A DNA stretch of 64,000 nt, taken from the NCBI RefSeq assembly GCF_024746795.1, contig NZ_CP080524.1, positions 2,768,001 to 2,832,000 on the forward strand, read 5' to 3'. Position 1 is the stretch's first letter; every line of letters begins with the position of its first letter. The translations under genes were made by a program, and so were the position numbers. Source of the DNA: Mesorhizobium sp. AR10 (GTDB lineage Bacteria; Pseudomonadota; Alphaproteobacteria; Rhizobiales; Rhizobiaceae). A model generated the notes under the pieces. It saw nothing but the letters and a program-made list of their open reading frames with translations, ran no database searches and was not told where the DNA came from. Positions 39,009 to 58,767 of the stretch are shown here, piece by piece.

Positions 39009-39067
39009 TGGACAACTCCAAACATCTGGAGTGAGAGCCAGCTGTTGCCGACTGGCTCCCAGGTCGA

Positions 39068-42236: not shown

Positions 42237-42325
42237 TCGCATCCGCCTTTGCCCGGCAGCTCTTCGCACAATTGGGGCGCTCGAACGCCGGCCGTCCCGA
42301 GATTGCGACAGCCCCACCAGGGTCA

Positions 42326-42364
42326 CAATTTCGCAAGGCCTTGATACTTGGCGCAAACTGACGC
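42326..42364 (-). promoter_or_regulatory. 39-bp island element, site A
   Basis: Read toward the HisD-like gene: GCGTCA at position 1, GCGCCA at 11, ATC at 20-22, TGCGAAATTG at 30-39. The TGCGAAATTG end is 90 bases from the HisD start. It also lies 44 bases before the HTH regulator gene on the other strand. Confidence 0.85.
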
Positions 42365-42407
42365 ATATCGGACCCATAAACTTTTGCGGTGGGCAGCAGT
42401 AAACTGA

Positions 42408-43238
42408 ATGGAAACGGATGAGGATACGGGTCTTTTAGCGGTAAACTTCGCTGCCAATCTCAGATTTTTGTGTGAGCGAAGCGGTTCCATTTCGGACATC
42501 TGCCGCAAAATGAAAATAAACCGACAGCAATTTAATAAGTATATGTCGGGTCTGCATATTCCATCGATGCAGAATAGAAGGATAATTGCAAAATACTTTG
42601 GACTAAGCCAGGACGTGCTCTTTGTGGAGCACGAAGAATTTAGGATGCTTATCGAGGGAAACTATTTTCATACCCTCGAGGCGCTCCGCCATGCAGCAAG
42701 GTTTAGCGGATTCCTGGAAACAGGCCTTCTTCATCAGAGATCAACGCCGGATGGATATTTAGGAATATATGATCGATACCAGTACTCCAGTATCTACAAA
42801 GGAAAAATATTACGCTCTGCATTCTGCATCTACCGCAACAGAGACTTTCTTCAGCACTATTATGTGGAGCGGTTTCCGAGTTTCGATCGCCCGTCGAAGG
42901 CAGATTATGTCTTTAAATACCACGGGTTCACAATTCCATTGGACGGGCGAATATTCTCTGTCGATTTCGAAGTCAGCCAAAAGAACGAGATGACATTTGG
43001 AATTTATGCACCCGTTCAGCGAAGCGCGAAAAACTTCATGTTCGGCATCACCTCGGGGATCGCGGCAACAATGCTGCGACCTCCCTACGCTACGAAGGTC
43101 GCGATGCATTACCGAGCTCCCGGTATGCTCCGGAAAGAGCATCTGAAGCGGCTGACCACACTCGAGGAAAACGACTCGTCAATTCCAGTTGAGGTTAGGC
43201 AATTCCTAGGTAGCGACGAAATGCTGCCGCGATCTTGA
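42408..43238 (+). CDS. HTH transcriptional regulator of the island (candidate activator)
   Basis: 276 residues, visibly more AT-rich than its neighbours. N-terminal XRE-like [40 protein letters not shown], then a linker ([17 protein letters not shown]). The C-terminal 190 residues are of unknown fold, with many aromatic residues ([16 protein letters not shown]). ATG 42408 has only a weak ribosome site. It is transcribed away from the HisD-like operon across site A and ends 32 bases from the convergent GMC gene. It is the only regulator amid the five 39-bp elements and is the best candidate to bind them. Confidence 0.8.
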
Positions 43239-43270
43239 TTAGCGCCCAACCGGTGACAGTCGCTCGTCCA

Positions 43271-44773
43271 TCACGCTAGATCGGTCGCCAGCATGTGGTC
43301 GGCCGTGCGCAAAGCTTGTGCGGCAATTGTCAAGGCTGGGTTCACGGCTGCGGCAGATGGAAAGAATGAAGCATCCACAACAAACAGATTCTGCTGATCC
43401 CATGCACGGCAGAACGGATCCAGGGCCGACTTTCCAGGGTCATTGCCCATTCGTACCGTGCCGCATTGATGGCCCGTAGCGTGGGCGACAAGCGATTTGG
43501 TGATGACGATGGGATATCCCGCCTGCCGAAGCGCACGCTTCATCCGACGGACGAGTTCGAGATGTCCGTCCATATTGTTCAAGGTCACTGAGAGCTTGAT
43601 GCGATCTCCGTCGAGTGTCACACGATTGTTGGGGTCGGGGAGATCTTCGGAAAGGCCGATCCAGTCCATCCCGTGCCGGGCCAGTCGATCCCCCAGGATA
43701 CTCGGCAGATAAGGCACATTTGCGGTCAGCATGCCTCCTTGCAGCTTGCCGAGCATCTGCATCTGTCCCATGGGCCAGCGAAAGGCATCATCGCCGAAAT
43801 ACCAATCATTGAGGGCGAGGGTCTTCTGAAAGACCGTGGAGTTCACATGGTGTGACAGACCCATCAAAGCGGTCTGATTGTGTACCATGTAATGCCGTCC
43901 GACGATATCGGAACTGTTCGCCACGCCCTTTGGGGCTCCACTGTCTGCCGAGCGGAGCAGCAAGGCCGAGCTGTTTACGGCGTTGCAGGAAACAACGAAA
44001 AGCGGGGCCTGCAGTCGCTTTATCGTGCCGGCGTGATCGACCTCGACCGCGGTGATCCGCTTGCCATCAGGTGTGGTCAAAAGACGACGCGCAAAGGCCT
44101 GGGTCATCAAATCGACCCGACCAGTTGCCAGCGCAGGTTCGACACCACAGGTTTCCGCATCGTTCTTCTGGCCGATCTTGCATGGAAAGCCGTCACAGGT
44201 TTGGCATAGGATGCATGTGCCCGCCGGCGCCGCGTTCACTGCAAGCGGCAAAGCCGAGGGCGAGAGACCACGCTCTCGAAAACGCTGCGCCATGCGCTCG
44301 ACGATCGGCTCCGATTTTACTGGTCCGTATGGAAAAGGTGCGCCACGCGGTGGCGCCGTCTTGTCGAGGCGGTCGTCCCCATGAACGCCGAATATCCGCT
44401 CAGCCTCTTCGTAGTAGGGGGCGAGATCGGCATAGCGATATGGCCAAGCGGGAGATACGCCGCGTTTGTGTGCCAGATCCTCGAAGTCCCGTTCTCGCAA
44501 GCGAAACATCGCCGCGCCGTAGAATTTTGTGGAGCCGCCGACATTGTAAAACATGCCGGGATCGAAACTGTTGCCATGACGGTCCAGCCAAGTTTCCCTT
44601 GCTTTGTATTTCTTCTCAAAGAAGACCGCGTCGACGCTCCAGTTGTCTCGCTCACGAGGAACAAAGTCACCGCGCTCGATGATGAGCACCCGCGCACCTT
44701 TTTCGGCGAGACGGCGAGCGGTAGTGCCGCCTCCAACGCCGCTACCGATAACAATGACGTCATACTCTCTCAT
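43271..44773 (-). CDS. GMC family FAD-dependent oxidoreductase with cysteine cluster (copy 1)
   Basis: 500 residues. The FAD dinucleotide motif is IVIGSGVGGGTTARRLAEKG, and the C-terminal GMC domain has HQCGTVRMGNDP and VDASFFPSAAAVNPALTIAAQA. A central Cys cluster, CILCQTCDGFPCKIGQKND, distinguishes it from choline-dehydrogenase-like GMCs; it is shared with the protein at 50083. Membership points to pyranose-oxidase / sugar-3-oxidase relatives. The electron acceptor is unknown. Divergent from the ABC importer genes, with site C between. Confidence 0.88.
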   Translation of the reverse strand: MREYDVIVIGSGVGGGTTARRLAEKGARVLIIERGDFVPRERDNWSVDAVFFEKKYKARETWLDRHGNSFDPGMFYNVGGSTKFYGAAMFRLRERDFEDLAHKRGVSPAWPYRYADLAPYYEEAERIFGVHGDDRLDKTAPPRGAPFPYGPVKSEPIVERMAQRFRERGLSPSALPLAVNAAPAGTCILCQTCDGFPCKIGQKNDAETCGVEPALATGRVDLMTQAFARRLLTTPDGKRITAVEVDHAGTIKRLQAPLFVVSCNAVNSSALLLRSADSGAPKGVANSSDIVGRHYMVHNQTALMGLSHHVNSTVFQKTLALNDWYFGDDAFRWPMGQMQMLGKLQGGMLTANVPYLPSILGDRLARHGMDWIGLSEDLPDPNNRVTLDGDRIKLSVTLNNMDGHLELVRRMKRALRQAGYPIVITKSLVAHATGHQCGTVRMGNDPGKSALDPFCRAWDQQNLFVVDASFFPSAAAVNPALTIAAQALRTADHMLATDLA

Positions 44774-44902
44774 TCAAAATCCAATGTTCGAGATTTTGTG
44801 TGCGAGCTCCTCTCAGGAGCGCGTGGGAGCACAGCAGAGGTGTCCGGATGAAAAAAGCATACCGTCGATACATCTCCGACAAAAGCGGGTTTCACGCGGG
44901 TT

Positions 44903-44941
44903 GCGTCAGGTCGCGTCAAATATCCAACGTCTGCGAAATTG
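44903..44941 (+). promoter_or_regulatory. 39-bp island element, site C
   Basis: Reading rightward: GCGTCA at position 1, GCGTCA at 11, ATC at 20-22, TGCGAAATTG at 30-39. The last two bases with the following GTGA make a TTGTGA hexamer that could be a -35 box for the ABC importer operon, whose first start is 90 bases on. Confidence 0.88.
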
Positions 44942-45030
44942 TGACAGCCTCACAACAGCATAGCCTCTCCTTCAAAGAAAAAAGAGATGGTCGAGAACGT
45001 CCAACCAAGCTTCAGAGGGAGAATCAAACC

Positions 45031-46032
45031 GTGGCCGACAGCGTAGCTTCACCCTTCAAGGAGAACCCTTTCTGGGGCCGGCTCCATCAGTGGGTGGCTC
45101 CTCGATCGCCGTCGCAGGTTGTGCAGCGCGTCATGCTTGCCCTTCTCGTCCTGAGCATAGTTGCTTTGGCGGTTGCCAATCCCAATTTCAGGAATCCAGC
45201 CAATCTTCTCAACGTCGTTCAGCAGGCATCGATGGTAGGTATCGTTGCCTGCGGGATGCAGATGATGATCATATCCGGCGGGTTTGATCTGTCCGTTGGC
45301 GCAACCGCCGCGGCCGCGAGCTGTACTGCCGCAGCCATCTCTCTGGTAGCTGGAATTCCCGCCGGCATCGTGGGCGCACTCGTCGTCGGCCTTTTGATTG
45401 GAACTATCAACGGCAACCTGATCGCGAAGGTTGGCATCAATCCTTTCGTATCGACCTTCGGTGCGCAAGCGATCATTACAGGCACACTATATGCGATGAC
45501 GGAGGCCAAACCGATCGCGCCGCTGCCTCGCGAGTGGCGCGAACTCGGCTTCTTCAATGTCGGTGGGTTTTCCTTTTCCAGCATGGTCTTCGTCCTCGTT
45601 GTAGTTGTGCTGGCTTCGGTGCTGCGTTTCACGCGCTATGGGCAGCATGTCTATGCCGTTGGCAGCAACAAGACCGGCACAAGCCGTGCCGGCGTCAATG
45701 TGGATCGCGTCATTATAGCCACTTACGCCATCGGAGGCGTGACGGCTGCGATCGCGGGCGTTCTGCTGACCTGCATCGCCGGTATCGGCAGTCCGCAAGC
45801 TGGCACCACTTGGGCGCTGTTGTCCATAGCGGCGGTCGTTATCGGTGGCACACCGCTGACCGGCGGCGTGGGAGGCATCGCCTCCGCCGTGATCGGCATC
45901 TTCGCCCTGACCGTCTTAAACAATGCGATGACGCTCTACAGCATTTCGGCCTTCTGGCAGCCAGCTTTCATGGGGGGAGCTGTGCTACTGGCAGTCGGCT
46001 ACGAAGCGTTGCAGCGAGGCCGCAAATCCTGA
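45031..46032 (+). CDS. Ribose/fructose-type ABC transporter permease
   Basis: 333 residues, about ten helices. The family signature GGFDLSVGATAA is near residue 90, and VGSNKTGTSRAGVNVDRV and GTTWALLSIAAVVIGGTPLTGG are the conserved loops of RbsC/FrcC-type permeases (BPD_transp_2). GTG 45031 follows AGAGGGA; the longer frame from 44800 would run through the regulatory region. First gene of the importer operon: permease, binding protein, ATPase. Substrates of this family are pentoses, hexoses and cyclitols. Confidence 0.9.
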   Translation: MADSVASPFKENPFWGRLHQWVAPRSPSQVVQRVMLALLVLSIVALAVANPNFRNPANLLNVVQQASMVGIVACGMQMMIISGGFDLSVGATAAAASCTAAAISLVAGIPAGIVGALVVGLLIGTINGNLIAKVGINPFVSTFGAQAIITGTLYAMTEAKPIAPLPREWRELGFFNVGGFSFSSMVFVLVVVVLASVLRFTRYGQHVYAVGSNKTGTSRAGVNVDRVIIATYAIGGVTAAIAGVLLTCIAGIGSPQAGTTWALLSIAAVVIGGTPLTGGVGGIASAVIGIFALTVLNNAMTLYSISAFWQPAFMGGAVLLAVGYEALQRGRKS

Positions 46033-46082
46033 CCGGAACTCAGTGTCGACTGGTGAATCCGCAACAGAAGAGGAGAACTGAA

Positions 46083-47021
46083 ATGAACCTTACAAGACGT
46101 TTGTTCGGCGTCGCGACATTGGCTACGGCGCTGGCCGTTTCGACCGCATCACCGCTGTTCGCACAGGCGAACAAGCTGGGGGTAATGATCTATAACATCG
46201 GCGTCGATCCATGGATGAACGTGGCGGTTAAGGCGCTGGAAGAAAATGCAAAAGCTTTGGGATATGAGGTAACGGTTGCGGATGGTCGGAACGACGTGGC
46301 GCAGATGAATGCGGCCATCGACCAGTTCGTGGTGCAAGGCGTGAAGGCGATTGTTATCTGCCCGGCTGACCCGGACAGTCTGGTAGGCAGTATTTCAAAG
46401 GCTGTCGCGGCCGGCGTCCCAGTGGTGGCGTTTTCTCTCGGTGTCTCAAAGGATGCCAATTTGACCTCCTTCGTGGGTGCCGACGAGGTTGGCATGGGTC
46501 GCACCGCAGCACAGGCTGCCCTTAAGGCAATGGGCGGCAAGGGCAATGTCGCTCTCATGACCGGCATTTTGGGCACCTCGGCGCAAATCGGCCGAACCCA
46601 GGGCCAGCATGAGGTGTTCGACAAGGAAGCCGGCGTAAAGGTCGTTGAAGAACAGCCGAACGATTGGGCTCACGACAAGACCGTCGCCCTAATCCAGGAC
46701 TGGCTGTCCAAGTATCCGAAGGGCGAGCTCAACGCAGTGCTGGCACATGGGCCCGAGATCGTCGCCGCGGCCGAATACGCAAAGTCACAGGGACGCGACG
46801 AGGTCGTCTTTGTCGGCATCGACTATCCCGAGGATGCTCGCCGCGCCATCCAGGAAGGGACGCTTCTGGCCACGATCAGCCAGGATCCCAAACTTCTCGC
46901 CAAGTTGGCTGTCGAGATTGCGGACAAGGCTGCGAAGGGTGAGACGGTGGAAAAAGAGATCATGATCGAGACCACTCTCATGACAAAGGAAAACGTCGAA
47001 CAAAAGCCCGCCGACTATTAA
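46083..47021 (+). CDS. Sugar ABC transporter substrate-binding protein
   Basis: 312 residues. A signal peptide (residues 1-27, ending LFAQA) is followed by a periplasmic-binding type 4 (RbsB-like) protein: LGVMIYNIGVDPWMNV, AIDQFVVQGVKAIVICPADPDS, VVAFSLGVSKDANLTSFVGAD. AGAGGAGA precedes ATG 46083. It has the highest expected expression of the importer and is followed by a hairpin that could stabilise its mRNA. The ligand could be a sugar or inositol-like compound. Confidence 0.92.
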   Translation: MNLTRRLFGVATLATALAVSTASPLFAQANKLGVMIYNIGVDPWMNVAVKALEENAKALGYEVTVADGRNDVAQMNAAIDQFVVQGVKAIVICPADPDSLVGSISKAVAAGVPVVAFSLGVSKDANLTSFVGADEVGMGRTAAQAALKAMGGKGNVALMTGILGTSAQIGRTQGQHEVFDKEAGVKVVEEQPNDWAHDKTVALIQDWLSKYPKGELNAVLAHGPEIVAAAEYAKSQGRDEVVFVGIDYPEDARRAIQEGTLLATISQDPKLLAKLAVEIADKAAKGETVEKEIMIETTLMTKENVEQKPADY

Positions 47022-47030
47022 AGCAAAATC

Positions 47031-47057
47031 GTCTGCGGGAGATTGTCTCCCGCAGAC
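47031..47057 (+). terminator. Hairpin after the substrate-binding protein gene
   Basis: GTCTGCGGGAGA and TCTCCCGCAGAC form a perfect 12-bp stem with a TTG loop and no T tract. It more probably stabilises the upstream mRNA or attenuates read-through to the ATPase than terminates fully. Confidence 0.75.
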
Positions 47058-47092
47058 TAACCCATCGATCGACAAGTCCAAGGTTGGACAAC

Positions 47093-47890
47093 ATGTTAGA
47101 TGTTCACAAGACTCCCGCTTTCTCTGTTTCTTCAGCAGTTGTTCCGATCCTTGAATCACAAGGAATCGCGAAGCACTATGGTGGCGTGATCGCACTGACC
47201 GGCGCAGACTTGAGAGTCATGCCGGGAGAAATCGTAGCGATCGTGGGCGACAACGGCGCCGGAAAATCTACCTTCGTCAAGATCGTCTCAGGTGCGCAAC
47301 CTGCGGACGACGGCAAGCTCTTCGTTACCGGACGGGAGATGTCTTTCCACAGGCCGAGCGATGCGCGTGAGGCGGGGATCGAAACCGTCTACCAGGATTT
47401 GTCGCTCGCCGAGCATCTGGATGTTTTATCCAATTTGTTTCTTGGGCGAGAGGAATTCTACGTCAATTTCGGCGGTTTGAGCATTCTTAACCGGAAGAAG
47501 ATGGCGACCCGCGCCGAGGAATTGCTCAATGAAATAGGCGTGAATGTTCCAGGTGTGCGCGACATTGTCGGAGGGCTATCTGGCGGACAGCGGCAGGGTG
47601 TCGCCATCGCGCGTGCGGCCGGGTGGGGCTCCCAGCTGATCATCATGGACGAACCGACCGCTGCGCTGGGCGTGCAGGAAACCGCGCATGTGCACGACAT
47701 CATCCGTGCATTGCAAGGACGCGGCGTGGCTGTGCTTCTGGTCAGCCACAACATGAAACAGGTCATGGAATTGAGCGACCGGGTCTATGTGTTCAGGCGC
47801 GGGCGCATCGTCCGAGAACTCGTCACCAAGGACACGTCGACCGACGAGATCATCGGCTATATTACAGGCGCTCGGGGTTCGAGCCAGTGA
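47093..47890 (+). CDS. Sugar ABC transporter ATP-binding protein (single-domain, FrcA-like)
   Basis: 265 residues with one nucleotide-binding domain: Walker A GDNGAGKST, signature LSGGQRQG, Walker B LIIMDEPTAAL, H-loop LVSHN. RbsA-type partners are about 500 residues with two such domains; the half-length form is like FrcA in rhizobia, so a homodimer is expected. ATG 47093 follows AAGG. It is 71 bases after the binding protein and completes the importer. Confidence 0.92.
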   Translation: MLDVHKTPAFSVSSAVVPILESQGIAKHYGGVIALTGADLRVMPGEIVAIVGDNGAGKSTFVKIVSGAQPADDGKLFVTGREMSFHRPSDAREAGIETVYQDLSLAEHLDVLSNLFLGREEFYVNFGGLSILNRKKMATRAEELLNEIGVNVPGVRDIVGGLSGGQRQGVAIARAAGWGSQLIIMDEPTAALGVQETAHVHDIIRALQGRGVAVLLVSHNMKQVMELSDRVYVFRRGRIVRELVTKDTSTDEIIGYITGARGSSQ

Positions 47891-48415
47891 CGGTTGTCAA
47901 TTCACAGCAACGCAACCGCCATTGGAGCTGGCTGGGCCGTTGCTCGCAAGCAGACTGCCGGCCTTTCGATTGTGGACTTCTCCACCTGCGGTCGAAAAAT
48001 CTATCCACCAGCGGAGGCCGTCAACGCCTGATCCTACGGACATAATTGGTGGCCTTCTCGGCGATCACGATAGCGACGCCGTTCGTGTTGCCCGAGACGA
48101 GATTCGGTCCGACCGAATGTTGCAGACGCGCAGTACTGGCCCGATGCGGATGTATGGTTTCATGAATTCCGTGGCCATCAACTATGGCGCGGTCGCGGCG
48201 TTTTCGATCCTGTTTCGCTGCCCGTGGTCATACCTTCGGATGTCGCGCAGTTTCCGGGCAGGCTTCGTTCTCGGCGGTGGCCGTTCGCTGACCAGCCGGT
48301 GACTTGGCTGGAGGCGCTTCTCTGAGCTGCTGTGCAGCCTCAAGCCAAGAAAGCTGTTGCGCAGGGCAAGCGCATTGCAGCAGTGTCTGCGAGATTTCAC
48401 CCGCGACGTGTCCTG
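47891..48415. other. Spacer with a decayed GMC fragment
   Basis: 525 bases without an intact gene between convergent units. Apart from the GMC remnant listed next, the remaining sequence shows no recognisable protein. Confidence 0.5.
48034..48130 (-). pseudogene. Frameshifted remnant of a GMC oxidoreductase C-terminus
   Basis: Minus-strand translation gives LRVCN, then after a one-base deletion SVGPNLVSGNTNGVAIVI and AEKATNYVRRI. This matches the C-terminus of the adjacent gene (LRICDNSAGPNLVSGNTNGVAIMI). Only the tail is left and it is out of frame. It lies just beyond the stop of the intact GMC gene, indicating a former tandem copy. Confidence 0.82.
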
Positions 48416-50023
48416 TCAGCCGCCGGCATACGCTTTCATGCCATGGTCCTTGCGGATATGGTCTGCCGCCTTCTCGGCAATCATGATCGCCACACCGTTG
48501 GTGTTACCGGAAACCAGGTTCGGCCCAGCGGAATTATCGCAGATACGAAGGCCGTCAATACCGTGCACCTTCAAACTTGCGTCGACGACGGACATATCAT
48601 CGCGCCCTATCTTGCAGGTTCCCATCGGATGCAAAGCGGCATGGGCCTGCTTTAGCACATACGCACGAACATCCTCTCGTGTGCGGATGCCGCCAGGTGC
48701 GTACTCGCGCCTCAGATGCTTGGCAATAATCGGCTGAGACATCATCTCACGGCCGAACTCGACACCCTCGCACATGACTTCGACATCGTACTCTTCGGTG
48801 AGATAGTTCGGTCTGATATAGGGCAGGTCGAAGGGATCGTTGCTGCGCAATCCGATCCAGCCCACTGACTTTGGCCTGGTCTGGCAGATATTCAGTGTCG
48901 TTCCGTTGCCACCGGGAACAGTATCAACGCCCTCCTCGATACCCGCGCCTGGCATAAAGCAGCATTGGAGATCCGGTCGTTCTTCGTTGAGCGAGGAACG
49001 GAAGAAAGCGCCACCCTCCACGACGTTGGCGGTGCAAGGTCCCCTGCGGAACAAAAGATACTCGAGCCCTGCGGCGGCCTGCCAGTGCAGCTTCTTGTAT
49101 TTGTCATAGCTGAAAGGGCCGTTCACCTCATGAATAATGGACACTTCGACATGATCTTGCAGATTCTGCCCAACACCCGGCAGATGGTGCACCGGCTCCA
49201 CGCCTTTTTGTTTCAGGTGATCGACGTTGCCGAGACCGGAAATCATCAAGAGCCTGGGTGTGGCGATGGCTCCCGCGGTCACAATAACCTCCCGATCTGC
49301 GCGCAGCAGCGTCCGTTTCCCGCCGAGCATGACTTCCACCCCGGTGGCGCGCTTGCTTTCGAAGGTGATACGCAAGACGCTGGCGCCGGTGTGAACGGCA
49401 AGGTTTCCTCGCTTTCGAGCCGGCTTGAGGTAGCTCACGGCCGTGCTCCCACGGCGTCCGTTGCGTGCATTGATTTGGTAGAGACCGCAGCCTTCCTGAT
49501 GACCTGAATTGAAATCAGGGTTGAACGGCAAGCCCGCTTGCTGGCAGGCCTGCACCCAGAGGCGGCTCATGGGGTGCGTGAACTCCTGATCGGAAACCGG
49601 CAAAGGGCCGTCCGTGCCGTGCAGTTCGTTGGCGAAACGGTCATTGGATTCGCATCGTTTGAAGTAAGGAAGGACATCCTTCCAGCCCCATCCTTCGGCC
49701 CCGGCAGCTTGCCATTGATCGTAGTCGCGTGGCTGACCACGCAGATAGACCATGGCATTGACCGAGCTTCCGCCGCCCAGCACGCGTGCCTGGACCATTG
49801 TCGGATTGGGATCGCCTCTATGGCCCGAGCTTGGAGCCCATGGATAACGCGCAACCAGATTGCCTTGACCGGTCTTGTAGTAGGTCACCGGCAGGTGAAT
49901 CCACGGGCTCGTGTCCGCTGGCCCTTCTTCGAGCAAAAGTACGGAAACGTCGGGATCTTCGCTCAAGCGAGAAGCCAATACACAACCGGACGAACCACCA
50001 CCGACGATTATGAAGTGCGGCAT
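48416..50023 (-). CDS. GMC family oxidoreductase, choline-dehydrogenase-like (copy 2)
   Basis: 535 residues. FAD motif FIIVGGGSSGCVLASRLSED, GMC signature 1 region ARVLGGGSSVNAMVYLRGQ, signature 2 GAIATPRLLMISGLG, catalytic His region HPMGTCKIG and the C-terminal VSGNTNGVAIMIAEKAAD. It is most similar within the window to the protein at 52697. Such enzymes oxidise alcohol groups of polyols, choline or glycosides. AAGGA lies eight bases before ATG 50023. Last gene of a five-gene leftward operon starting at 55607. Confidence 0.9.
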   Translation of the reverse strand: MPHFIIVGGGSSGCVLASRLSEDPDVSVLLLEEGPADTSPWIHLPVTYYKTGQGNLVARYPWAPSSGHRGDPNPTMVQARVLGGGSSVNAMVYLRGQPRDYDQWQAAGAEGWGWKDVLPYFKRCESNDRFANELHGTDGPLPVSDQEFTHPMSRLWVQACQQAGLPFNPDFNSGHQEGCGLYQINARNGRRGSTAVSYLKPARKRGNLAVHTGASVLRITFESKRATGVEVMLGGKRTLLRADREVIVTAGAIATPRLLMISGLGNVDHLKQKGVEPVHHLPGVGQNLQDHVEVSIIHEVNGPFSYDKYKKLHWQAAAGLEYLLFRRGPCTANVVEGGAFFRSSLNEERPDLQCCFMPGAGIEEGVDTVPGGNGTTLNICQTRPKSVGWIGLRSNDPFDLPYIRPNYLTEEYDVEVMCEGVEFGREMMSQPIIAKHLRREYAPGGIRTREDVRAYVLKQAHAALHPMGTCKIGRDDMSVVDASLKVHGIDGLRICDNSAGPNLVSGNTNGVAIMIAEKAADHIRKDHGMKAYAGG

Positions 50024-50082
50024 ATCAAAATCCTTGTGATGGCGCTGGAATCATTTCCTCGCCATGCATCGGGAGCTTCCGT

Positions 50083-51642
50083 TCAGGACAGTCTTCTTCC
50101 CCGAACGCGGCCATGGCTTGCCTTCTCGATCCCGAACTCCACCCGCGCGATGTGCTGGGCCACGCGCAGGGCTTGCGCAGCAATGGTCAGGGAGGGGTTT
50201 GTCGCGGCGGAGGTGGGCATGAACGACGCGTCCACCACGAAGAGATTGGGGTGGTCCCACGATCGGCAATAGGGATCGAGCGCCGAATGCTGGGGATCCA
50301 GGCCCATTCGGACGGTGCCGCATTGTGCAGCGGTAAAATTGACCGGAAGTGTCTTCGTGAGCACGAGCGGAAATCCGATGTCGTGCAGAATTCGTTTGAC
50401 CCGCTTGTTAAGACGAGCATGGCATTTCAAGTTGTTTGGCTGGACGGAGATGTGCACGTTTCCGTCCCGCAGCATCACACGGTTTTCCGCTTTCGGAAGG
50501 TCCTCGGACATTATCAGGATGTCGAAGCTGCGCTTCGTCAAAGCGCGGGCGATGGTCTGAGGCAGATATTTTGCCCCGGCCACCAGCATGCCCGACTGCA
50601 ACTTGCCCAGCGTCTGGACATTTCCCATCGGGAATGGATATCCCGGCTCGCCGTCGTAGAAATCGTTGAAGGCCAGCGTCTTCTGGAATTTGGTCGGATT
50701 CTCCCGCGTCGACACGGCCATCATCGTGGTCAGGTTGTGCGTCATGTAATGACGTCCAACGATATCTGTGCTGTTGGCCAAGCCGTCCGGGAACGAGCCG
50801 GTAGCAGAGCGCATCAGAATGAGAGCCGAATTTACTGCGCCGGCAGAGAGGACAAATATGCCGGCAGAAACGGTTTTAATGTTGCCCTGGTGTTCGACCT
50901 CAACGGCGTTGATGGTGCGACCATCATCCGCGACAAGCAGGCGACGTACGAAAGCGCCGGCCCACAGGGTGACACGCCCCGTCTCGAGGGCTGGCTCTAT
51001 GCAACGGGTCTCCGCATCGTTCTTGCCGCCGACTGCGCAGGGAAAACCGTCACACGTGCCACACCGCACGCACTTGCCCCCGGGATGCAGGTCAACAGCG
51101 ACCGGAAGCGGGAAGGGGTGCAGACCTTTCGCCCGCAGGCGTTCTTCGATCCGGGCGACGTAGGGTTCCGACCCAACGGCGCTATAGGGAAGTTGTTCGG
51201 AACGGGGTGGTTCCCATGGGTCGAGCGATGGGTCACCATGAATGCCGAAGAGATGTTCCGCCTCGCCGTAGTAAGGCTCCAGCTCCTCATAGGAAAAAGG
51301 CCAGGCCGGCGACAGGCCTTCAGCGTGTTCGACAGCTTCGAAGTCGCTCGCGCGCAGGCGCATCATCACGGTGCCGAAAAACTTCGTCGATCCACCAATG
51401 TTATACCAGCTGGAAGGACGGAAGTTTTTGCCGGCCCGATCCTTCCAGATCTCGAACGGGCTGTACTTACGCTCCTTAAAGACCTTGCCGACATTCCAGT
51501 TATCGGCTTCACGCGGCACGGCCGAGCCCCGTTCCAGAAGGAGAACATTCAAACCCAATTCCGCCAGTTGCCTCACCAGAGGGCCGCCGCCGGCTCCGCT
51601 GCCGATGACGACGACGTCCGGTGAAGGTGCGCTCATACGCAT
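50083..51642 (-). CDS. GMC family oxidoreductase with cysteine cluster (copy 3)
   Basis: 519 residues, a close paralogue of the protein at 43271. FAD motif VVVIGSGAGGGPLVRQLAELG, cysteine cluster CVRCGTCDGFPCAVGGKND, and C-terminal QCGTVRMGLDPQHSALDP and SAATNPSLTIAAQA. Two such Cys-cluster GMCs in one island, each next to a different operon, suggest oxidation of different positions or related substrates. ATG 51642 follows CAGGA; the frame is open 61 codons further but unlike the family. Confidence 0.9.
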   Translation of the reverse strand: MRMSAPSPDVVVIGSGAGGGPLVRQLAELGLNVLLLERGSAVPREADNWNVGKVFKERKYSPFEIWKDRAGKNFRPSSWYNIGGSTKFFGTVMMRLRASDFEAVEHAEGLSPAWPFSYEELEPYYGEAEHLFGIHGDPSLDPWEPPRSEQLPYSAVGSEPYVARIEERLRAKGLHPFPLPVAVDLHPGGKCVRCGTCDGFPCAVGGKNDAETRCIEPALETGRVTLWAGAFVRRLLVADDGRTINAVEVEHQGNIKTVSAGIFVLSAGAVNSALILMRSATGSFPDGLANSTDIVGRHYMTHNLTTMMAVSTRENPTKFQKTLAFNDFYDGEPGYPFPMGNVQTLGKLQSGMLVAGAKYLPQTIARALTKRSFDILIMSEDLPKAENRVMLRDGNVHISVQPNNLKCHARLNKRVKRILHDIGFPLVLTKTLPVNFTAAQCGTVRMGLDPQHSALDPYCRSWDHPNLFVVDASFMPTSAATNPSLTIAAQALRVAQHIARVEFGIEKASHGRVRGRRLS

Positions 51643-51670
51643 GGGGTTGTCCTGAGGTAGGGGATGACAT

Positions 51671-52684
51671 TCATGCTTGCCACGCACTGCTGGCCAGAGA
51701 ACGAACGGCGTTCGCCGCACGAGCGAGCGATTCCCGTCGGAGATCGCCACCCTCGACCGACCGAGTGATGCGTGTGGCAACCTCATCAACCTGAGGGCCG
51801 GATGCGAGAAGCAGAAGGTCGACACCGGCTTTCAGCGACGCGATTGCGACATCGGCCACGGTCCGTCCCCGCAAAGTACCCGGCAAATCAATGTCGTCCG
51901 AAACGATGAGGCCTTTGAAATTGTGGGCCCCTCGCAGCATGCCTACGACCTTGGCCGAGGAGGAGGAAGGCTCATCGGGATCGATCGCGTCGACAGGAAT
52001 GGGGCCGGTCATGATTGCGCGCACACCCGCCGCGATGGTCGCATCGAAGCAGCGCAAATTCGGTGCGAGTTCTTCCAGCGTTGCCGTCACAGTGACGGTG
52101 TCGCTGTCGAACGGATCGACCAGAACATGGGGATGACCAGGGAAATGCTTTGCCGTTGCGACCAGGCCTTCTTCCTGTACACCGCGAATGAAGGCGCTCG
52201 CGACACGACCTACGATATCCGCGTCGGTGGAAAAGGTGCGATCGCGCAACCACGGATTTCTGCCGGTCACCAGATCAACAACCGGCCCCAGAAAGAAATT
52301 GACCCCGCAGAGCTTGGCTGCTCGCGCCGCTTCAGAACCGAAGCTCCTGATCTCGTCATCGTTCATTTCCAGCACATCGCGAGGGTGCGCCAGCTGAGGT
52401 CCGAAGTGGTGCAAACGATGCACGCCTCCCACTTCGTAATCGACGGCGATCAGCACGTCGCCAGCGAGAGCACGAGCGCGGTCGGCATAAGCCGACAGTT
52501 GCTCCCGGGTCTCATGCCGCTGCCGTTCAGGCGACATGCGGCGTGCCATGTACTCCCCGCGCGTTGATCCGAGGAGCGAGGCGACGCCGCCTGACCGAAA
52601 GAAGGACGCAGAGTCCACAGTGAAATCGGCATCGCCGAAAGCTGGGAGCAATACGGCATAGGCATCGCGGTAAATCTGATCCAT
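51671..52684 (-). CDS. Glycoside hydrolase family 3-like protein (NagZ-like, altered dyad)
   Basis: 337 residues of the GH3 N-terminal TIM barrel type. The substrate-loop motif ATAKHFPGHPHVLVDPFDSD and the nucleophile region GLIVSDDIDLPG are visible. NagZ-type enzymes use a flexible D-S-H dyad after KHFPGH; here the corresponding stretch is D-P-F, without the His, so a canonical beta-N-acetylglucosaminidase activity is doubtful. No signal peptide, thus cytoplasmic. It lies between two GMC genes (12 and 28 bases), so it probably acts on oxidised glycosides. Confidence 0.83.
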   Translation of the reverse strand: MDQIYRDAYAVLLPAFGDADFTVDSASFFRSGGVASLLGSTRGEYMARRMSPERQRHETREQLSAYADRARALAGDVLIAVDYEVGGVHRLHHFGPQLAHPRDVLEMNDDEIRSFGSEAARAAKLCGVNFFLGPVVDLVTGRNPWLRDRTFSTDADIVGRVASAFIRGVQEEGLVATAKHFPGHPHVLVDPFDSDTVTVTATLEELAPNLRCFDATIAAGVRAIMTGPIPVDAIDPDEPSSSSAKVVGMLRGAHNFKGLIVSDDIDLPGTLRGRTVADVAIASLKAGVDLLLLASGPQVDEVATRITRSVEGGDLRRESLARAANAVRSLASSAWQA

Positions 52685-52696
52685 CGTCCAACAGTC

Positions 52697-54349
52697 CTAC
52701 AATCTCTGTGCTTCGAGCGAGCGCGCGTCGGGCAGGCTGATGCCGTTTGCGGCGGCAGGCCGATCTCGGAGAAGGTCCGCAGCCTTCTCGCCAATCATGA
52801 TGACGACCGAATTGAGGTTGCCCGATATGACATCGGGCATCACCGACGCGTCAGCGATCCTGAGCCCTTCCACACCATGGACACGCAATTGCGGATCGAC
52901 CACTGCCATGGAATCGCGCCCCATACGGCAAGTGCCGCAAGGATGCAGGCCGGGGTGGGCCTGCGAGCGTACGAACGCATCAAACTCGGCCGTGGTCGAG
53001 AGAGGCCTGGGTGGGATGTGTGCCTGTTCGACGTATCGGGACAGCACTGGCTGCCCCATAATGTCCTGAACGAGGCGAACTCCATCCGCCAGGCAGTGGA
53101 TGTCGTCCGGATGAGTGAGATAGTTCGGTACGATCCTCGGCGGCCGGCTGGTGTCCCCACCCGCCAGCTCGATGAAACCACGCGACTTCGGTCGAGTCTG
53201 CGAAACACTGATCGTGCAGCCGTTGCCACCGGGCACGGTACCGACACCTTCTTCGACGCCGGCGCCAGCAAGAAAAAAGAGCTGGATGTCTGGATTGGTC
53301 GTTCCGTTCGAACTCCACCAGAAGCCTCCGGCTTCCGCGACGTTGGACGTCACAGGCCCGCTGCGGAAGAGCATATACTCAAGGCCGGCCTTCGCAGCCC
53401 ACCATGGCTTCTTGTATTTGTCATAGCTGTACGGGCCGCTCAGGCCGTACACGAGCGACATTTCCATGTGGTCCTGATAATTCTGCCCCACCCCCGGAAG
53501 GTCGCAAACGACCGGAATGCTGTGAGTTTCAAGATGGTCAGCAGGCCCCACTCCCGAGAGCAAGAGCAAGTGTGGGGTGGCGATCGCGCCTGCCGACAGG
53601 ATGACCTCACGCTCGGCCCTGAGACGATGGCGCGTGCCTCGCTCTACAAACTCGACCCCGACGGCGCGCTGTCCTTCGAACAGAATGCGGCGCACCTGGC
53701 ACTTCGTCCTTAGATCGAGGTTGGGCCGACCCATCGCGGGGCGGATGTAGGCAACCGCTGCGGAAGAGCGACGCCCATCCCGGGTGGTGACCTGATAAAG
53801 CCCAACCCCCGACTGGTCACCTGAATTGAAATCGGAATTGTAGGGCAGGCCGGCCTGTTGGCAGGCCTGAAGCCACACCCGCGTCAGCGGATGTATGTAT
53901 CGTGCATCCGAGACGCCGAGCGGTCCCTGGCTGCTATGCGCCTCTCCCTGAAAACGGTTGTTTCCTTCGGCCCGCTTGAAGTACGGGAGAACGTCCGCGT
54001 AACTCCAGCCTTCTGCGCCCCCGGCAGCCCATCCGTCGTAGTCGTCGGGCACGCCGCGGACGTACAGCATCGCGTTCACCGAGCTGCCGCCGCCAAGCAC
54101 GCGCGCCTGGATCATTGTCGGGCTCTCAGCCGGCGCCTGCTCCGGGCTGCGCTCGTAGGAGTATCGCGACAGAAGCGGACCTTTGCACACCTTGTAGTAG
54201 GTAACCGGGAGATGGATCCATGGGTTGCGATCCGCCGGGCCCTGCTCGAAGAGCGTGACATGCGTGTCGGCATCTTCCGTCAATCGACCGGCCAGCGTGC
54301 AGCCGGTGGAGCCGCCACCCACAATGATGTAGTCGGGACGTCGTCTCAT
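52697..54349 (-). CDS. GMC family oxidoreductase, choline-dehydrogenase-like (copy 4)
   Basis: 550 residues. FAD motif YIIVGGGSTGCTLAGRLTED, ARVLGGGSSVNAMLYVRG, GAIATPHLLLLSGVG, and HPCGTCRMGRDSMAVVD. The central SGPYSYDKYKKPWWAAKAGLEYMLF segment is nearly the same as in the protein at 48416 (GPFSYDKYKKLHWQAAAGLEYLLF), so the two are recent paralogues. Second gene of the operon led by the Gfo/Idh gene, 88 bases upstream. Substrate unknown; a ring hydroxyl or polyol alcohol is likely. Confidence 0.9.
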   Translation of the reverse strand: MRRRPDYIIVGGGSTGCTLAGRLTEDADTHVTLFEQGPADRNPWIHLPVTYYKVCKGPLLSRYSYERSPEQAPAESPTMIQARVLGGGSSVNAMLYVRGVPDDYDGWAAGGAEGWSYADVLPYFKRAEGNNRFQGEAHSSQGPLGVSDARYIHPLTRVWLQACQQAGLPYNSDFNSGDQSGVGLYQVTTRDGRRSSAAVAYIRPAMGRPNLDLRTKCQVRRILFEGQRAVGVEFVERGTRHRLRAEREVILSAGAIATPHLLLLSGVGPADHLETHSIPVVCDLPGVGQNYQDHMEMSLVYGLSGPYSYDKYKKPWWAAKAGLEYMLFRSGPVTSNVAEAGGFWWSSNGTTNPDIQLFFLAGAGVEEGVGTVPGGNGCTISVSQTRPKSRGFIELAGGDTSRPPRIVPNYLTHPDDIHCLADGVRLVQDIMGQPVLSRYVEQAHIPPRPLSTTAEFDAFVRSQAHPGLHPCGTCRMGRDSMAVVDPQLRVHGVEGLRIADASVMPDVISGNLNSVVIMIGEKAADLLRDRPAAANGISLPDARSLEAQRL

Positions 54350-54437
54350 GTCAGCGCAGCCATTGGTGAAGCGAGGTCAAGGTCAACGGAACTGTCTTTC
54401 AGGGGGCCAGGATCGATGGGCATAGCGTTTGTCACGA

Positions 54438-55607
54438 TCAAGAATCGGGAAAGGGAACCCAGGACCTTAGCGACGAGGACTTGACGCAAATCTCGGACAA
54501 CAGCACGCCGCGCAGCCCCTCGTTTATGTCCGCAAGCGGAATAGGCAGTGCCTCACGCCAGTTGCTGCCGGCTTCCAGGGCTGTCGCGTAGTCCGAATAG
54601 AGCACAGCCAGTGCCTCAAGATAGGCTTCGGGATTGCCGGCAGGCAGGCTGATTGAGCTGGCTGCGTCTGCGGTCATGTCCCGGTGTCCGCGGCGATAGA
54701 TCAGATCAGCCTCGCCGAGACGCGAAACATGGAGTGTCTCCGGTGCCTCTTGCTGCCACTCAATGGTTGCCTTCGTGCCAACTATCTTGAAACGCAAACC
54801 ATTGCGGTGCCCGGGCGCGGCGAGGGCAGCCCACAACAGCCCGTTGGCGCCGCCGTCGAACTCCATCTGCACCACATCGGTATCATCAAGACCGAACGAA
54901 TCGATGGTTTGCATCAGCTTGGCGCTAAGCGCCGTGCATCGCTGCCCTGACAGAAACTCGAGAATGTTGAAGGCGTGTGTGCCGATGTCTCCAAGTGCAC
55001 CGGTCAGCCCGGCCTTTGCTGGATCACCACGCCAGACAGCGCCCTTGCCAAGGCTCGAAGGACCGTTGGCGAGCCATTCCAGCAGATACTCGACATACAT
55101 GAACCGGATCTGCCCGATTTCTCCCGCGCGGATGCGCGCACGGGCATCGCGGACCATTGGGTAACCCGTATAGGTGTAGGTCATGGCGAAGAACGTGTCA
55201 TTCGCCGCCGCCAGTCTTTGGAGTTCGCGAGCCTCGTCCGATGAATTGACGAGCGGTTTGTCGCATATGACCGGGATGCCTGCCTCGAGAAACAGCTTGC
55301 ACGGTTCGAAATGCAAATGATTGGGCGTCACAATGATCGCAACGTCTATGGCGTCGTCTCGCGCCGCCTCGGCTGACGCCATGTCGCGGAAGTTCAGGTA
55401 ATTCCTGTCTGTTGATATGCCCAAGGCTTCTCCTGCCTCCAGGCAGGTTTGCGGGTTGGAGGAGAAGGCCCCTGCCACGAGGTCGAAACGGTTTGCGAGG
55501 CGCATGGCCGCCCTGTGGATACCCGCGAAAAAAGATCCACGGCCGCCTCCCACCATTCCAGCGCGGAAGCGGCGCTTGCGCGGAATATCACTCGTCAACA
55601 GGCCCAT
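54438..55607 (-). CDS. Gfo/Idh/MocA family oxidoreductase
   Basis: 389 residues. The Rossmann domain has GMVGGGRGSFFAGIHRAAMRL, VTPNHLHFEPCKLFLEAGIPVICDKPLVNSSDEA (the catalytic DKP Lys) and a C-terminal GALGDIGTHAFNILEFLSG segment. NAD(P)-dependent oxidation or reduction of sugars or inositols is the family activity. GGAG lies seven bases before ATG 55607. First gene of a five-gene operon with two GMC paralogues, GH3 and a Cys-cluster GMC; its promoter carries site D. Confidence 0.92.
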   Translation of the reverse strand: MGLLTSDIPRKRRFRAGMVGGGRGSFFAGIHRAAMRLANRFDLVAGAFSSNPQTCLEAGEALGISTDRNYLNFRDMASAEAARDDAIDVAIIVTPNHLHFEPCKLFLEAGIPVICDKPLVNSSDEARELQRLAAANDTFFAMTYTYTGYPMVRDARARIRAGEIGQIRFMYVEYLLEWLANGPSSLGKGAVWRGDPAKAGLTGALGDIGTHAFNILEFLSGQRCTALSAKLMQTIDSFGLDDTDVVQMEFDGGANGLLWAALAAPGHRNGLRFKIVGTKATIEWQQEAPETLHVSRLGEADLIYRRGHRDMTADAASSISLPAGNPEAYLEALAVLYSDYATALEAGSNWREALPIPLADINEGLRGVLLSEICVKSSSLRSWVPFPDS

Positions 55608-55740
55608 GAATATCTCCCCGCCCAGGGGAAGTCCTCAGCGTCGGTCTGAAGATCTCGCATGGGTGCCGGCTTCTAGTCGGGCCGGAGTTGTCTCCGGAAA
55701 CTCCCAACTCGCGCATCCTTCCATGCGCCAAATTGGTCAG

Positions 55741-55779
55741 CAATTTCGCAGACTTGAATTGACTGGCGCAAACTGAAGC
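55741..55779 (-). promoter_or_regulatory. 39-bp island element, site D
   Basis: Toward the Gfo/Idh gene: GCTTCA at position 1, GCGCCA at 11, TGCGAAATTG at 30-39; the TGCGAAATTG end is 133 bases from the start codon. The central ATC position is AAT here. Confidence 0.8.
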
Positions 55780-55880
55780 ACTTGGAATACAGGCCTGAAC
55801 GCCCCGCGAGCATCGACCGGTGCTTGGGTCGCGCGTTTGACGACTACTCCAACGCGCGAATGTGGAGAAACAGCGCGCTG

Positions 55881-57500
55881 CTAGCCGCCTGTTTTCCGAT
55901 TGCCCAGGATGATATCCGCCCCCTTCATCGCGATCATCGCCGTCGGCGTATTGGTGTTTCCGGAGACGATCAGAGGCATGACGGATGCATCCACAACACG
56001 AAGCCCATCCACGCCGTGGAAGCGAAGAGAAGCGTCAACCACAGCCTGCCTGTCTGCCGCCTTACCCATCCGCGCCGTGCCCACTGGATGGAAGATTGTC
56101 GTTCCTATGTCGCCAGCTGCCTTCGCGAGGGCTTCGGCATCGTCTCCGATCGACTGTCCTGGCAGATACTCTTCGGGGTGGAGGTGGCGCAGGGCCTCTT
56201 GTTTCATCAGCCGACGCGTGACGCGTATCGCATCGGCGGCCACCTGACGATCCTCGTCGGTGCTCAGATAGTTAGGTTTGATGGAAGGAGGCTTCGCCGG
56301 GTCAGGCGACGTAATTTTGACGTTGCCGCGCGAAGTCGGGCGCAGATTGCATGCTGCGACCGTTATCGCCGAGAAACGGTGCAGCGGGTCACCGAATTTA
56401 TCCAGCGAAAGCGGCTGCACATGGAACTCGATGTTTGCTCGATCTTGCGTTGGATCCGAACGCGTGAAGATGCCAAGCTGTGATGGGGCCATTGTCAGCG
56501 GTCCCCGCCGCCGCACGGCGTAGTCCAGGCCCATCAGTCCCTTCTGGAAGAGGGAGTGATAGGTATCGTTGAGTGTTCGCGCCCCGCGGACCTTGTATAT
56601 TGCGCGCTGCTGAAGGTGGTCCTGCAGGTTTTGTCCGACGCCCGGACGATCGATGATGCAGTCGACGCCGGCCTCTCGAAGCCACTTGCCTGGCCCGATA
56701 CCGGAGCGATGCAGAATCTGCACCGAGCCGATTGCTCCGGCGCTCAGGATTATTTCGCCGCGCGTGTGTGCCACTTGCTGCGAGCCGTCTGCGCGGTAAA
56801 AGCGGACTCCGCTGACGCGATTGTCCTTCACCAACAGCCGATCGACGAGGACATCGGTTGCAAGTTCCAGGTTGGATCTGCCGAGCGCCGGTTTGAGAAA
56901 GCCCCTCGCGGATGACCAGCGGCGGCCCCGCTTCTGGTTCACGTGGAAATAGCCGGCGCCTTCATTGTCGCCGGTGTTGAAGTCGTCCGATCTGGGTACC
57001 CCCATTTCGATCGCGGCATCGCGCACGGCGTCAAGGATCGGCCATGAAAGCCGCGGAGCCTCTACGCGCCATCCTCCGCCGACACCGTGATGCGGCCCAT
57101 TCCCCAGGAAGTGATCCTCAAGCCGGCGAAACACCGGAAGCACATCGCTCCAGCCCCAGCCGGGCAAGCCGAGGTTACGCCAGGTGTCATAGTCGGCGGC
57201 CTGACCGCGCATCGCGATCATTGCGTTGATTGCCGACGACCCGCCAATGACCTTTCCACGCGGATAGGCAAGGCTCCGGCCATTCAGGCCAGGCTCGGCC
57301 TCGGTGCGAAACATCCAATCCGATTTTGGATTGCCGATCGCGAAGAGATAGCCGACTGGTATGTGAAACCAGATCCAGTTGTCTCGCCCTCCGGCCTCGA
57401 GAAGCAGGACCCGGTTCGCCGGGTCTTCCGAAAGCCGGTTCGCCAGAATGCACCCCGCGGTCCCCGCGCCGACAATGATGTAGTCGTAAGCGTCCTGCAT
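55881..57500 (-). CDS. GMC family oxidoreductase, BetA-like (copy 5)
   Basis: 539 residues. FAD motif YIIVGAGTAGCILANRLSED, YPRGKVIGGSSAINAMIAMRGQ, GAIGSVQILHRSGIGPG and HPVGTARMGKAADRQAVVDASLR. It is nearer to choline/alcohol dehydrogenases than to the other two island groups. ATG 57500 follows GAGGATCAAGG. It lies 68 bases after the 233-residue protein in the same direction and probably shares its promoter with sites B and E. Confidence 0.92.
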   Translation of the reverse strand: MQDAYDYIIVGAGTAGCILANRLSEDPANRVLLLEAGGRDNWIWFHIPVGYLFAIGNPKSDWMFRTEAEPGLNGRSLAYPRGKVIGGSSAINAMIAMRGQAADYDTWRNLGLPGWGWSDVLPVFRRLEDHFLGNGPHHGVGGGWRVEAPRLSWPILDAVRDAAIEMGVPRSDDFNTGDNEGAGYFHVNQKRGRRWSSARGFLKPALGRSNLELATDVLVDRLLVKDNRVSGVRFYRADGSQQVAHTRGEIILSAGAIGSVQILHRSGIGPGKWLREAGVDCIIDRPGVGQNLQDHLQQRAIYKVRGARTLNDTYHSLFQKGLMGLDYAVRRRGPLTMAPSQLGIFTRSDPTQDRANIEFHVQPLSLDKFGDPLHRFSAITVAACNLRPTSRGNVKITSPDPAKPPSIKPNYLSTDEDRQVAADAIRVTRRLMKQEALRHLHPEEYLPGQSIGDDAEALAKAAGDIGTTIFHPVGTARMGKAADRQAVVDASLRFHGVDGLRVVDASVMPLIVSGNTNTPTAMIAMKGADIILGNRKTGG

Positions 57501-57568
57501 CCTTGATCCTCAGTGTTACCAGATGCAATGCGCGCCGCACGAGCGTGAAAGCATACCCGATCGGCGGG

Positions 57569-58270
57569 TCAGGCCTGCTTCGGATGCAACTCGATTGCCA
57601 TCCAGATGCAGTCTTCGTCCGTCCAGCCTCTGTGCCAGGGATAGATATAGTTTCGCCTGCCCGTTACCCTCACGATCGGGTCATGAGTGTCACCCGGCGC
57701 GGTTGAAATCTCGCGATACACTTCGGCTCCTGTCTGGTCCTTGAAAATCTGTATGCGGCCGAGTCCGAAGATTTGGGTGTGTATCTCCAGGAAGGAGTGC
57801 GTGTTGTGGATGCCCGCATCCGTTCGAGCCGGCGCCCACCAGAGATTGAGCTGTATATCGTATCGTTCGGTTTCCTCGAGCGGTTCCGGATGATTGGAGA
57901 ACCGCCACGGATTGAGCGTCACCTCGCCGACGATGTCATGCTTGGAGATATAGAGGGGCGTGGTCCTGGGAAATTCTGCCATGCGGTTCCCGAACCAATC
58001 CCAGCCGTCAAGCGTGACGCCGCCGAGGTTTGTGGGGTCCGGGACGTCGACGATTGATACGCGTTCGGCCTGCGCAATCGTGCCGCCTTTCAAGATCGTG
58101 GACTTCCAGGGCGGTATCACGCCTGGGACGTCGCCAGCGACAATTATCGCCTGATTGGACAGATTGGTTACGACGCCATTCGCAGCATAGTCACGCACCC
58201 TTTCGACGAGATGCGCTCGGACAAATTTCCCGTCGAACGAAAGCGGGCGGCTGCGATTTTCTTCCTTCAT
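57569..58270 (-). CDS. Unknown-family protein with cupin-like histidine pattern
   Basis: 233 residues, soluble. I do not recognise a family. The C-terminal half has a suggestive pattern for a metal-binding cupin: HNTHSFLEIHTQIFGLGRIQIF, then GDTHDPIVRVTGRRNYIYPWHRGWTDEDCIWMAIELHP. The N-terminal part contains GDVPGVIPPWKSTILKGGT. GGAG lies six bases before ATG 58270. Co-directional with the BetA-like GMC 68 bases downstream, and 190 bases from site B. Possibly an isomerase, lyase or accessory protein of the oxidation pathway. Confidence 0.75.
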   Translation of the reverse strand: MKEENRSRPLSFDGKFVRAHLVERVRDYAANGVVTNLSNQAIIVAGDVPGVIPPWKSTILKGGTIAQAERVSIVDVPDPTNLGGVTLDGWDWFGNRMAEFPRTTPLYISKHDIVGEVTLNPWRFSNHPEPLEETERYDIQLNLWWAPARTDAGIHNTHSFLEIHTQIFGLGRIQIFKDQTGAEVYREISTAPGDTHDPIVRVTGRRNYIYPWHRGWTDEDCIWMAIELHPKQA

Positions 58271-58461
58271 TTCTTACTCCGAAAGCCAAGTGGTGCCGAG
58301 AGCCAGGCCCGTGAAAATCAGGAAGCGAAGCCTTTGGTGCTCTTGGTGAGTACATAGCTGAAATGCGGGCGCAGGTATCTTACCAACCAATGCCACCCAA
58401 CCAATGCCGTGCATGTCAGAACGGTGCATCTTCGCAACATGGGGGAGGCTGGGGGTAATCA

Positions 58462-58500
58462 CAATTTCGCATCGTTCCGATACTTGGCGCAAATTGAAGC
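58462..58500 (-). promoter_or_regulatory. 39-bp island element, site B
   Basis: Toward the 233-residue gene: GCTTCA at position 1, GCGCCA at 11, ATC at 20-22, TGCGAAATTG at 30-39, then TGA. Identical to site A at the inner half-sites and at TGCGAAATTG. Confidence 0.85.
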
Positions 58501-58628
58501 ATCGCCCAAGCCGCTTACCAAAGGGGCGGCTGTCGCGGGTTCGGCAAGGGTGGGGCCAGACAGCAGAAGTCAGGCCTGCCCAGGCTACCAAGAGGCGCGT
58601 CCCGACCTGACGACACACAGTCACACGC

Positions 58629-58667
58629 ACGCCAACCTGCGTCAGAAATCATCGTTTTGCGAAATTG
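58629..58667 (+). promoter_or_regulatory. 39-bp island element, site E
   Basis: Toward the isomerase gene: ACGCCA at position 1, GCGTCA at 11, ATC at 20-22, TGCGAAATTG at 30-39; the TGCGAAATTG end is 101 bases before ATG 58768. Confidence 0.78.
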
Positions 58668-58767
58668 CGTCGTTCTTCCGGATCAGGGAACCTACCTTGT
58701 CGACGCGGGCTAGCGTGTGCAGGCACGAACTTTCCTTCGCTCCGAAGTCCATCGCAGAAAGTGGAAG

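Follow-up and report, generated by a model that had tools for sequence, protein, structure and literature searches.

A 39-bp head-to-tail element as the probable operator of an XRE-type regulator in a catabolic island of Mesorhizobium sp. AR10

Within the 64,000 nucleotides of Mesorhizobium sp. AR10 DNA analysed here – referred to as the window – a 39-bp element recurs five times in a gene island, each copy standing upstream of a presumed operon and one of them also beside the gene for a regulator with an XRE-type helix-turn-helix (HTH) domain. The five stretches lie at the coordinates given in the initial annotation and align without gaps. Site A (42326..42364, minus strand) is located between a HisD-like operon on its left and the HTH regulator gene on its right; site C (44903..44941, plus strand) heads genes for a sugar ABC permease, a binding protein and an ATPase; site D (55741..55779, minus strand) heads a Gfo/Idh unit; site B (58462..58500, minus strand) heads the genes for a 233-residue protein and a GMC protein; and site E (58629..58667, plus strand) heads the gene for a TIM-barrel protein.

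The operon structures behind these sites were taken from gene order and strand. According to open reading frames and Pfam, the unit behind site A (36835..42242, minus strand) encodes a HisD-like dehydrogenase (start at about 42242), thiamine-diphosphate (ThDP) enzyme 1, an inositol-phosphatase family protein and a TIM-barrel protein. Behind site C (45031..47890, plus strand) follow the ABC permease (start at about 45031), the substrate-binding protein and the ATP-binding protein; behind site D (48416..55607, minus strand), a Gfo/Idh oxidoreductase, a GMC protein, a GH3 protein, a small GMC protein and another GMC protein; behind site B (55881..58270, minus strand), the 233-residue protein and a GMC oxidoreductase; and behind site E (58717..60836, plus strand), the TIM-barrel protein and a 6-phosphogluconate-dehydrogenase-like protein. 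The chosen start codons lie 84 (A), 90 (C), 134 (D), 192 (B) and 101 (E) bases past the end of the element, those of the A, C and E targets being our choice among possible alternatives; the longest mechanical frames of the A and C targets begin upstream of the element.

Read towards the gene that each precedes, all five copies carry GCGYCA at positions 11–16 and TGCGAAATTG at positions 30–39, as the initial annotation had claimed. Two further features that it described are less uniform: GCGYCA at positions 1–6 is exact in A and C (2/5) but reads GCTTCA in D and B and ACGCCA in E, giving a consensus of RCKYCA, and ATC at positions 20–22 is found in four of the five sites but is AAT in D. The core of the five window sites is RCKYCA-N4-GCGYCA-N13-TGCGAAATTG. 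At site A, the units occupy 42364-42359 and 42354-42349, a degenerate third place lies at 42344-42339, and the terminal TGCGAAATTG spans 42335-42326. Mean pairwise identity among the copies is 0.68 within the element, compared with 0.26–0.27 in the 100 bases on each side.

Across the 6.88 Mb of the genome, six sites match GCGYCA-N13-TGCGAAATTG exactly and none with one mismatch, which excludes chance. The sixth site (G000:C2:2869691-2869729, minus strand), 38 kb past the end of the window, carries GCGTCA at positions 1 and 11 – even though this site played no part in defining the motif – and a -10 hexamer AACACT at spacer 18; it heads the gene for a 434-residue protein, read as the sugar-type binding protein of a transporter. 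A leave-one-out matrix scan of 117 kb recovered A, B, C and D each at rank 5, right behind the four training sites, and E at rank 6, behind the training sites and the sixth site.

The regulator (42408..43238, plus strand) is a 276-residue protein encoded by a single-copy gene; site A lies between this gene and the divergently oriented HisD-like operon. Its N-terminal part (about residues 8–77) is a Cro/C1-type HTH, whose model aligns with the HTHs of ComR and DdrO, and its C-terminal half (about residues 119–237) models as an avidin/lipocalin-like (calycin) barrel of eight antiparallel strands in up-and-down order, a plausible sensor domain on this modelling. Pfam has no domain matching the sensor half, searches of PDB sequences returned weak HTH matches only, and the public names among the 120 homologs listed, where given, are only XRE, helix-turn-helix or hypothetical. 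The putative recognition segment, NRQQFN[KR]Y, is found in all 24 aligned orthologs, and a simple scan of reading frames detected it in 15 of the 23 paralogs.

The element and the regulator occur together. A four-member regulator alignment served to fetch 49 named ortholog loci, mostly from rhizobia and related bacteria, the others including Azospirillum, Tabrizicola and Fuscibacter. With a 22-position matrix, the element is present at 15 bits or more in all 49 (139 matches; none in the same loci reversed) and at 24 bits or more in 43, three of the loci (L065, L066 and L077) holding sites on which the matrix was trained. Also in 43 of the 49, a copy lies 20–330 bp upstream of the regulator gene on the opposite strand. 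In the gene maps of these loci, sites precede ThDP-HisD or HisD-ThDP operons and the genes for the 233-residue protein, GMC, Gfo/Idh and sugar ABC proteins, in an order that varies between genera. In a near relative (L065), the gene behind the copy that adjoins the small GMC gene resembles the window ATPase at only 30%, and the binding-protein and ATPase pair is located elsewhere, behind its own copy. In a twelve-genome comparison with a relaxed 39-mer at one mismatch or fewer, the element was found in 7/7 genomes with an ortholog – four of which (G000, G057, G206 and G213) had supplied training sites and three (G073, G103 and G218) had not – and in 0/5 without one, the reversed pattern giving no match.

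A stricter pattern, again at one mismatch or fewer, matched 17 of 297 genomes (reversed pattern, none) and missed the ortholog genomes G073 and G103. Five of the 17 have an ortholog, two have a paralog – with the match directly upstream of the paralog in one, G040 – and ten have neither. One of these ten, G175, in which no regulator match reaches E 1e-20, holds an orphan full-length element (L063:9926-9964) followed by a short open frame; it looks like a true site, possibly a remnant. A match in G216 (score 15.75), which has only distant ThDP and Gfo relatives alongside, was treated as chance. Fetched stretches from two genomes that encode relatives of ThDP enzyme 2 and of the HisD-like protein and lack a regulator ortholog, G164 (52% and 61%) and G200 (72% and 71%), contain no 39-bp element. 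G200 has four reversed GCGTCA-type units and TGCGAAATTG between its LacI and ThDP enzyme 2 genes (L152:6320-6430), and it encodes a 37% relative of the regulator with an identical recognition segment. We read this array as a rearranged version of the operator, which weakens the clean contrast between genomes yet fits the proposed binder.

Downstream of the element, the sites share a promoter-like register. In a non-redundant set of 59 sites – obtained from 81 matches of at least 24 bits by a cut at 75% identity – a -10 signal with A at its second and T at its sixth position (xAxxxT) follows the TTG of the element at 17 bp in 25 sites, against a maximum of 11 in 2000 permutations taken over offsets, and at 18 bp in 10; 33/59 have it at 17 or 18. 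This signal was read in columns that played no part in detecting the sites, and because it follows at 17 bp, the TTG at positions 37–39 is the likely start of a -35 box. The suggestion in the initial annotation that A, B and C end in a -35 box, TTGTGA, was right in substance but too narrow, as the whole set shows the TTG followed by the -10 signal. For site A, the 59-site signal predicts an outward promoter at 42300..42328 on the minus strand (-35 TTGTGA, 42328-42323; -10 CAATCT, 42305-42300), with transcription starting near 42293; the corresponding -10 or -10-like hexamers are TAGCCT (spacer 16) after C, AAGGAT after D, CATGTT after B and GAACCT after E, the last three, like that of A, at spacer 17, and transcription is predicted to begin near 44974 (C), 55708 (D), 58429 (B) and 58700 (E). 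The GCG cores of the units sit at about -70, -60 and -40, and the site overlaps the -35 region at a fixed distance from the -10, as at a class II activator promoter.

Site A also contains a predicted promoter pointing the other way. The regulator gene would be transcribed from 42341..42369 (plus strand), with -35 TTGATA (42341-42346) and -10 CATATC (42364-42369) separated by 17 bp across the site; this -10 has the A2 but lacks the T6 of the wider set. TCAA at positions 21–24 distinguishes regulator-upstream sites (16/20, non-redundant) from sites elsewhere (1/38), and reads as TTGA towards the regulator in 20 of 25 loci of a wider non-redundant set, reduced from 48 with the exclusion of L105 (best upstream score 3.9). 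In 13 of these 25, xAxxxT follows TTGA at spacer 17 (permutation maximum 10, mean 4.5). Further A2/T6 peaks at spacers 7, 23 and 29 are ascribed to other conserved repeats, and the spacer-17 peak is weaker evidence here than the -10 signal of the outward promoter. Many regulator loci, unlike the window, also carry a GCGTCA-N4-GCGT pair on the regulator strand past that promoter. An element overlapping the opposite-facing promoter of the regulator would fit self-repression.

Regulator paralogs suggest how the spacing of the element arose. Among 23 paralog loci (E 3e-63 to 4e-24), 14 have their best match on the opposite strand, 59–139 bp upstream of where the paralog itself matches, and six paralogs are preceded by four contiguous 10-bp units, ending in G or A followed by CGAANTTG. 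In the light of these six, the window element can be understood as a four-place array whose third place (position 21) has been lost.

The element is probably the operator of the XRE-type one-component regulator at 42408–43238, which would activate the catabolic operons while limiting its own synthesis. On the sequence evidence, it is very likely that this protein is the binder; given binding, activation is itself quite likely, on grounds of geometry only. We envisage that the HTH reads GCGTCA-type units spaced 10 bp, or one helical turn, apart; that of the four unit places 1, 2 and 4 have been retained, with unit 4 (TGCGAANTTG) merging into the -35 hexamer of the target; and that the head-to-tail array, on one face of the DNA near -70, -60 and -40, contacts RNA polymerase. 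The catabolic and transport operons would be activated when the barrel senses a pathway metabolite, and at the regulator's own gene the element, facing the divergent gene, would cover the regulator promoter, so that binding would limit regulator synthesis. Direct binding, activation, autorepression and ligand sensing are what we infer from a computed picture of sites, co-occurrence, -10 signals, four-unit relatives and a predicted barrel. Activation is favoured because the element always stands in one orientation and one register upstream of a poor -35. The activator site defining a regulon that the initial annotation had envisaged holds up well as far as the regulon goes – on genome specificity, presence in all 49 loci and position before catabolic genes – and activation is the likelier sign; that annotation did not include the neighbouring regulator, the derivation from four units, the further promoter within site A or the island units that have no element. 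A broader proposal is evenly balanced in our judgement: that the regulator stands for an undescribed family combining an XRE HTH and an avidin/lipocalin-like sensing barrel with a DNA code of one unit per helical turn (an array of three or four units of the GCGTCA type, closed by TGCGAANTTG and fused to the -35), that this array serves to activate catabolic operons and, read from the opposite side, to switch off the regulator's own promoter, and that paralogs vary in the number and letters of the units.

Several observations weigh against this interpretation. Both Pfam (best E 0.095) and NCBIfam (24 bits, cut-off 80) put the HTH of the regulator below their cut-offs, and matches to the -10 consensus are modest (2.97 of 6, background 2.09). 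Only 7 of the 14 paralog loci with an upstream match exceed the top of 46 reversed controls (23.9; second 15.7, mean 6.4), and nine paralogs have no such match, several of them (L124, L129, L131, L133 and L138) in spite of the same recognition segment. At the level of the class (289 genomes), upstream units occur in one of nine distant relatives – a count that excludes the window's own regulator – where they score at background and lack the terminal unit, so that the code belongs to a subfamily; a binomial calculation made alongside, whose interval was picked after viewing the matches, is not relied on. The ten genomes of 297 with neither ortholog nor paralog at E 1e-20 have unexplained single matches, which composition alone may not explain, since the reversed pattern has none. 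Finally, ThDP enzyme 2 has no element here, although its orthologs in many mapped loci do.

The HTH protein could instead repress the outward promoters by covering the -35, an inducer in the barrel releasing it, and many XRE proteins are repressors; unit 4 overlaps the -35, a place that a repressor could equally occupy, and the element also lies across the promoter of the regulator itself. A repressor would have no need of a -10 signal in a single register across 59 sites, units 1 and 2 lie some 20–35 bp upstream of the -35 and always in one orientation, and the -35 fits the consensus little past its TTG (0.83 of the last three positions), so that we consider repression unlikely, if worth keeping in view. 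It is very improbable that another regulator binds, whether the LacI protein encoded at 35634-36698 in the same island or a chromosomal one such as PhoB, whose PHO boxes are likewise direct repeats (PMC4415409). The units of the element are direct, not inverted as in the palindrome of a LacI-type operator; a separate LacI-like palindrome exists at 61452; and in the 49 locus maps, which were picked by the HTH gene, no homolog of the island LacI appears (tblastn, E 1e-15). LacI is disfavoured as binder on these last two points. PHO boxes have a period of 11 and not 10, and sites of a core regulator would be expected in the five relatives without an HTH ortholog, where the 39-mer found none.

An origin of the copies as a dispersed repeat or by chance, suggested by several similar copies near each other, is already refuted: flanks are random in identity, similarity stops at the core, the matches are specific rather than randomly placed, the spacer is free, the register to the -10 signal is kept and the element is conserved in many genera. 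That the element heads every main transcription unit, as had been claimed, is too strong: ThDP enzyme 2 (61492-63294) has a palindrome upstream instead, and no element of their own precedes the LacI gene, the MFS gene or the small GMC gene at 43271-44773.

Around ThDP enzyme 2, the LacI-like palindrome TTAGATCGATCTAA is found at 61002-61015, 61452-61465 (exact) and 63478-63491; with up to three mismatches it has five matches in the window against 0.96 expected, and it is read as a regulatory system additional to that of the 39-bp element. A perfect 19-bp tandem duplication, TTTCTAAAATTCTTGCAAA, lies before the same gene (60949-60986). A tRNA-Met gene (31089-31164) is followed by an open reading frame (31282-32475) that by eye looks integrase-like, possibly the edge of the island; at the gathering threshold, Rfam finds nothing in the window but a tRNA. 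From 8.5 to 12.2 kb past the end of the window (L031:8538-12184), close to the island, there is a second set of genes, for a Gfo/Idh-like protein, a paralog of the 233-residue protein (44%) and GMC, with no element.

The 233-residue protein itself (57569-58270) is matched by neither Pfam nor NCBIfam at E 0.001, and the PDB offers nothing meaningful; its homologs occur in 43 of the 49 mapped loci, and it is a candidate for an uncharacterised enzyme. Its identification as the beta subunit of a C-glycoside deglycosidase was dropped, with no Pfam, NCBIfam or PDB match in support. The nearest PDB entry to the HisD-like protein is the (R)-DHPS dehydrogenase 8wwe (E 3.5e-118); the substrate of the pathway is nevertheless left unnamed because GMC, Gfo/Idh, GH3 and sugar-ABC genes are also part of the island.

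What began as a bare sequence pattern has become a testable regulator–operator pair, with predicted transcription starts for the five window operons and their relatives in the 49 loci. The same pairing of protein and site recurs in many related bacteria, its regulator is little studied and its targets are probably sugar-type breakdown genes. The operator offers a way into the uncharacterised breakdown pathway and its substrate; the paralog series from four units to three is a natural experiment on the evolution of head-to-tail operators. Among the open-licence papers listed by literature searches, no title or abstract opening describes the motif, which does not in itself establish its absence from print; those listed for the 10-mers of the element were judged unrelated by title, and searches on HpsN, GMC and motif databases gave nothing further among the entries listed.

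Among known systems, class II activators bind a site that adjoins the -35, with further sites upstream in helical register; the element differs in filling three of four 10-bp places and in having no palindrome. XRE-cupin and ComR regulators combine an N-terminal Cro/C1 HTH with a C-terminal sensor domain, as the window regulator also pairs an N-terminal HTH with a putative C-terminal sensor, but its barrel is avidin/lipocalin-like, with no Pfam match, and its operators are tandem. XrpA was rejected as a family member, being a 120-residue XRE protein (PMC11999139). RhizoBindingSites (PMC7674921) holds predicted, footprint-derived motif matrices for nine rhizobia, and an automatic matrix for an ortholog of the regulator may exist there. 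There is a likeness of arrangement to the PHO box, in which short units follow one another head to tail, separated by 4-nt spacers, and a regulator in contact with the sigma factor binds them in tandem (PMC4415409). The element shares the head-to-tail order and the spacer length, but it is no PHO box: the latter has CTGTCAT-like units and an 11-nt period (7+4), whereas the element has GCGTCA units, a 10-nt period and a terminal unit with a sequence of its own, TGCGAANTTG, and PhoB is a response regulator, unlike the XRE-type one-component protein proposed to bind the element.

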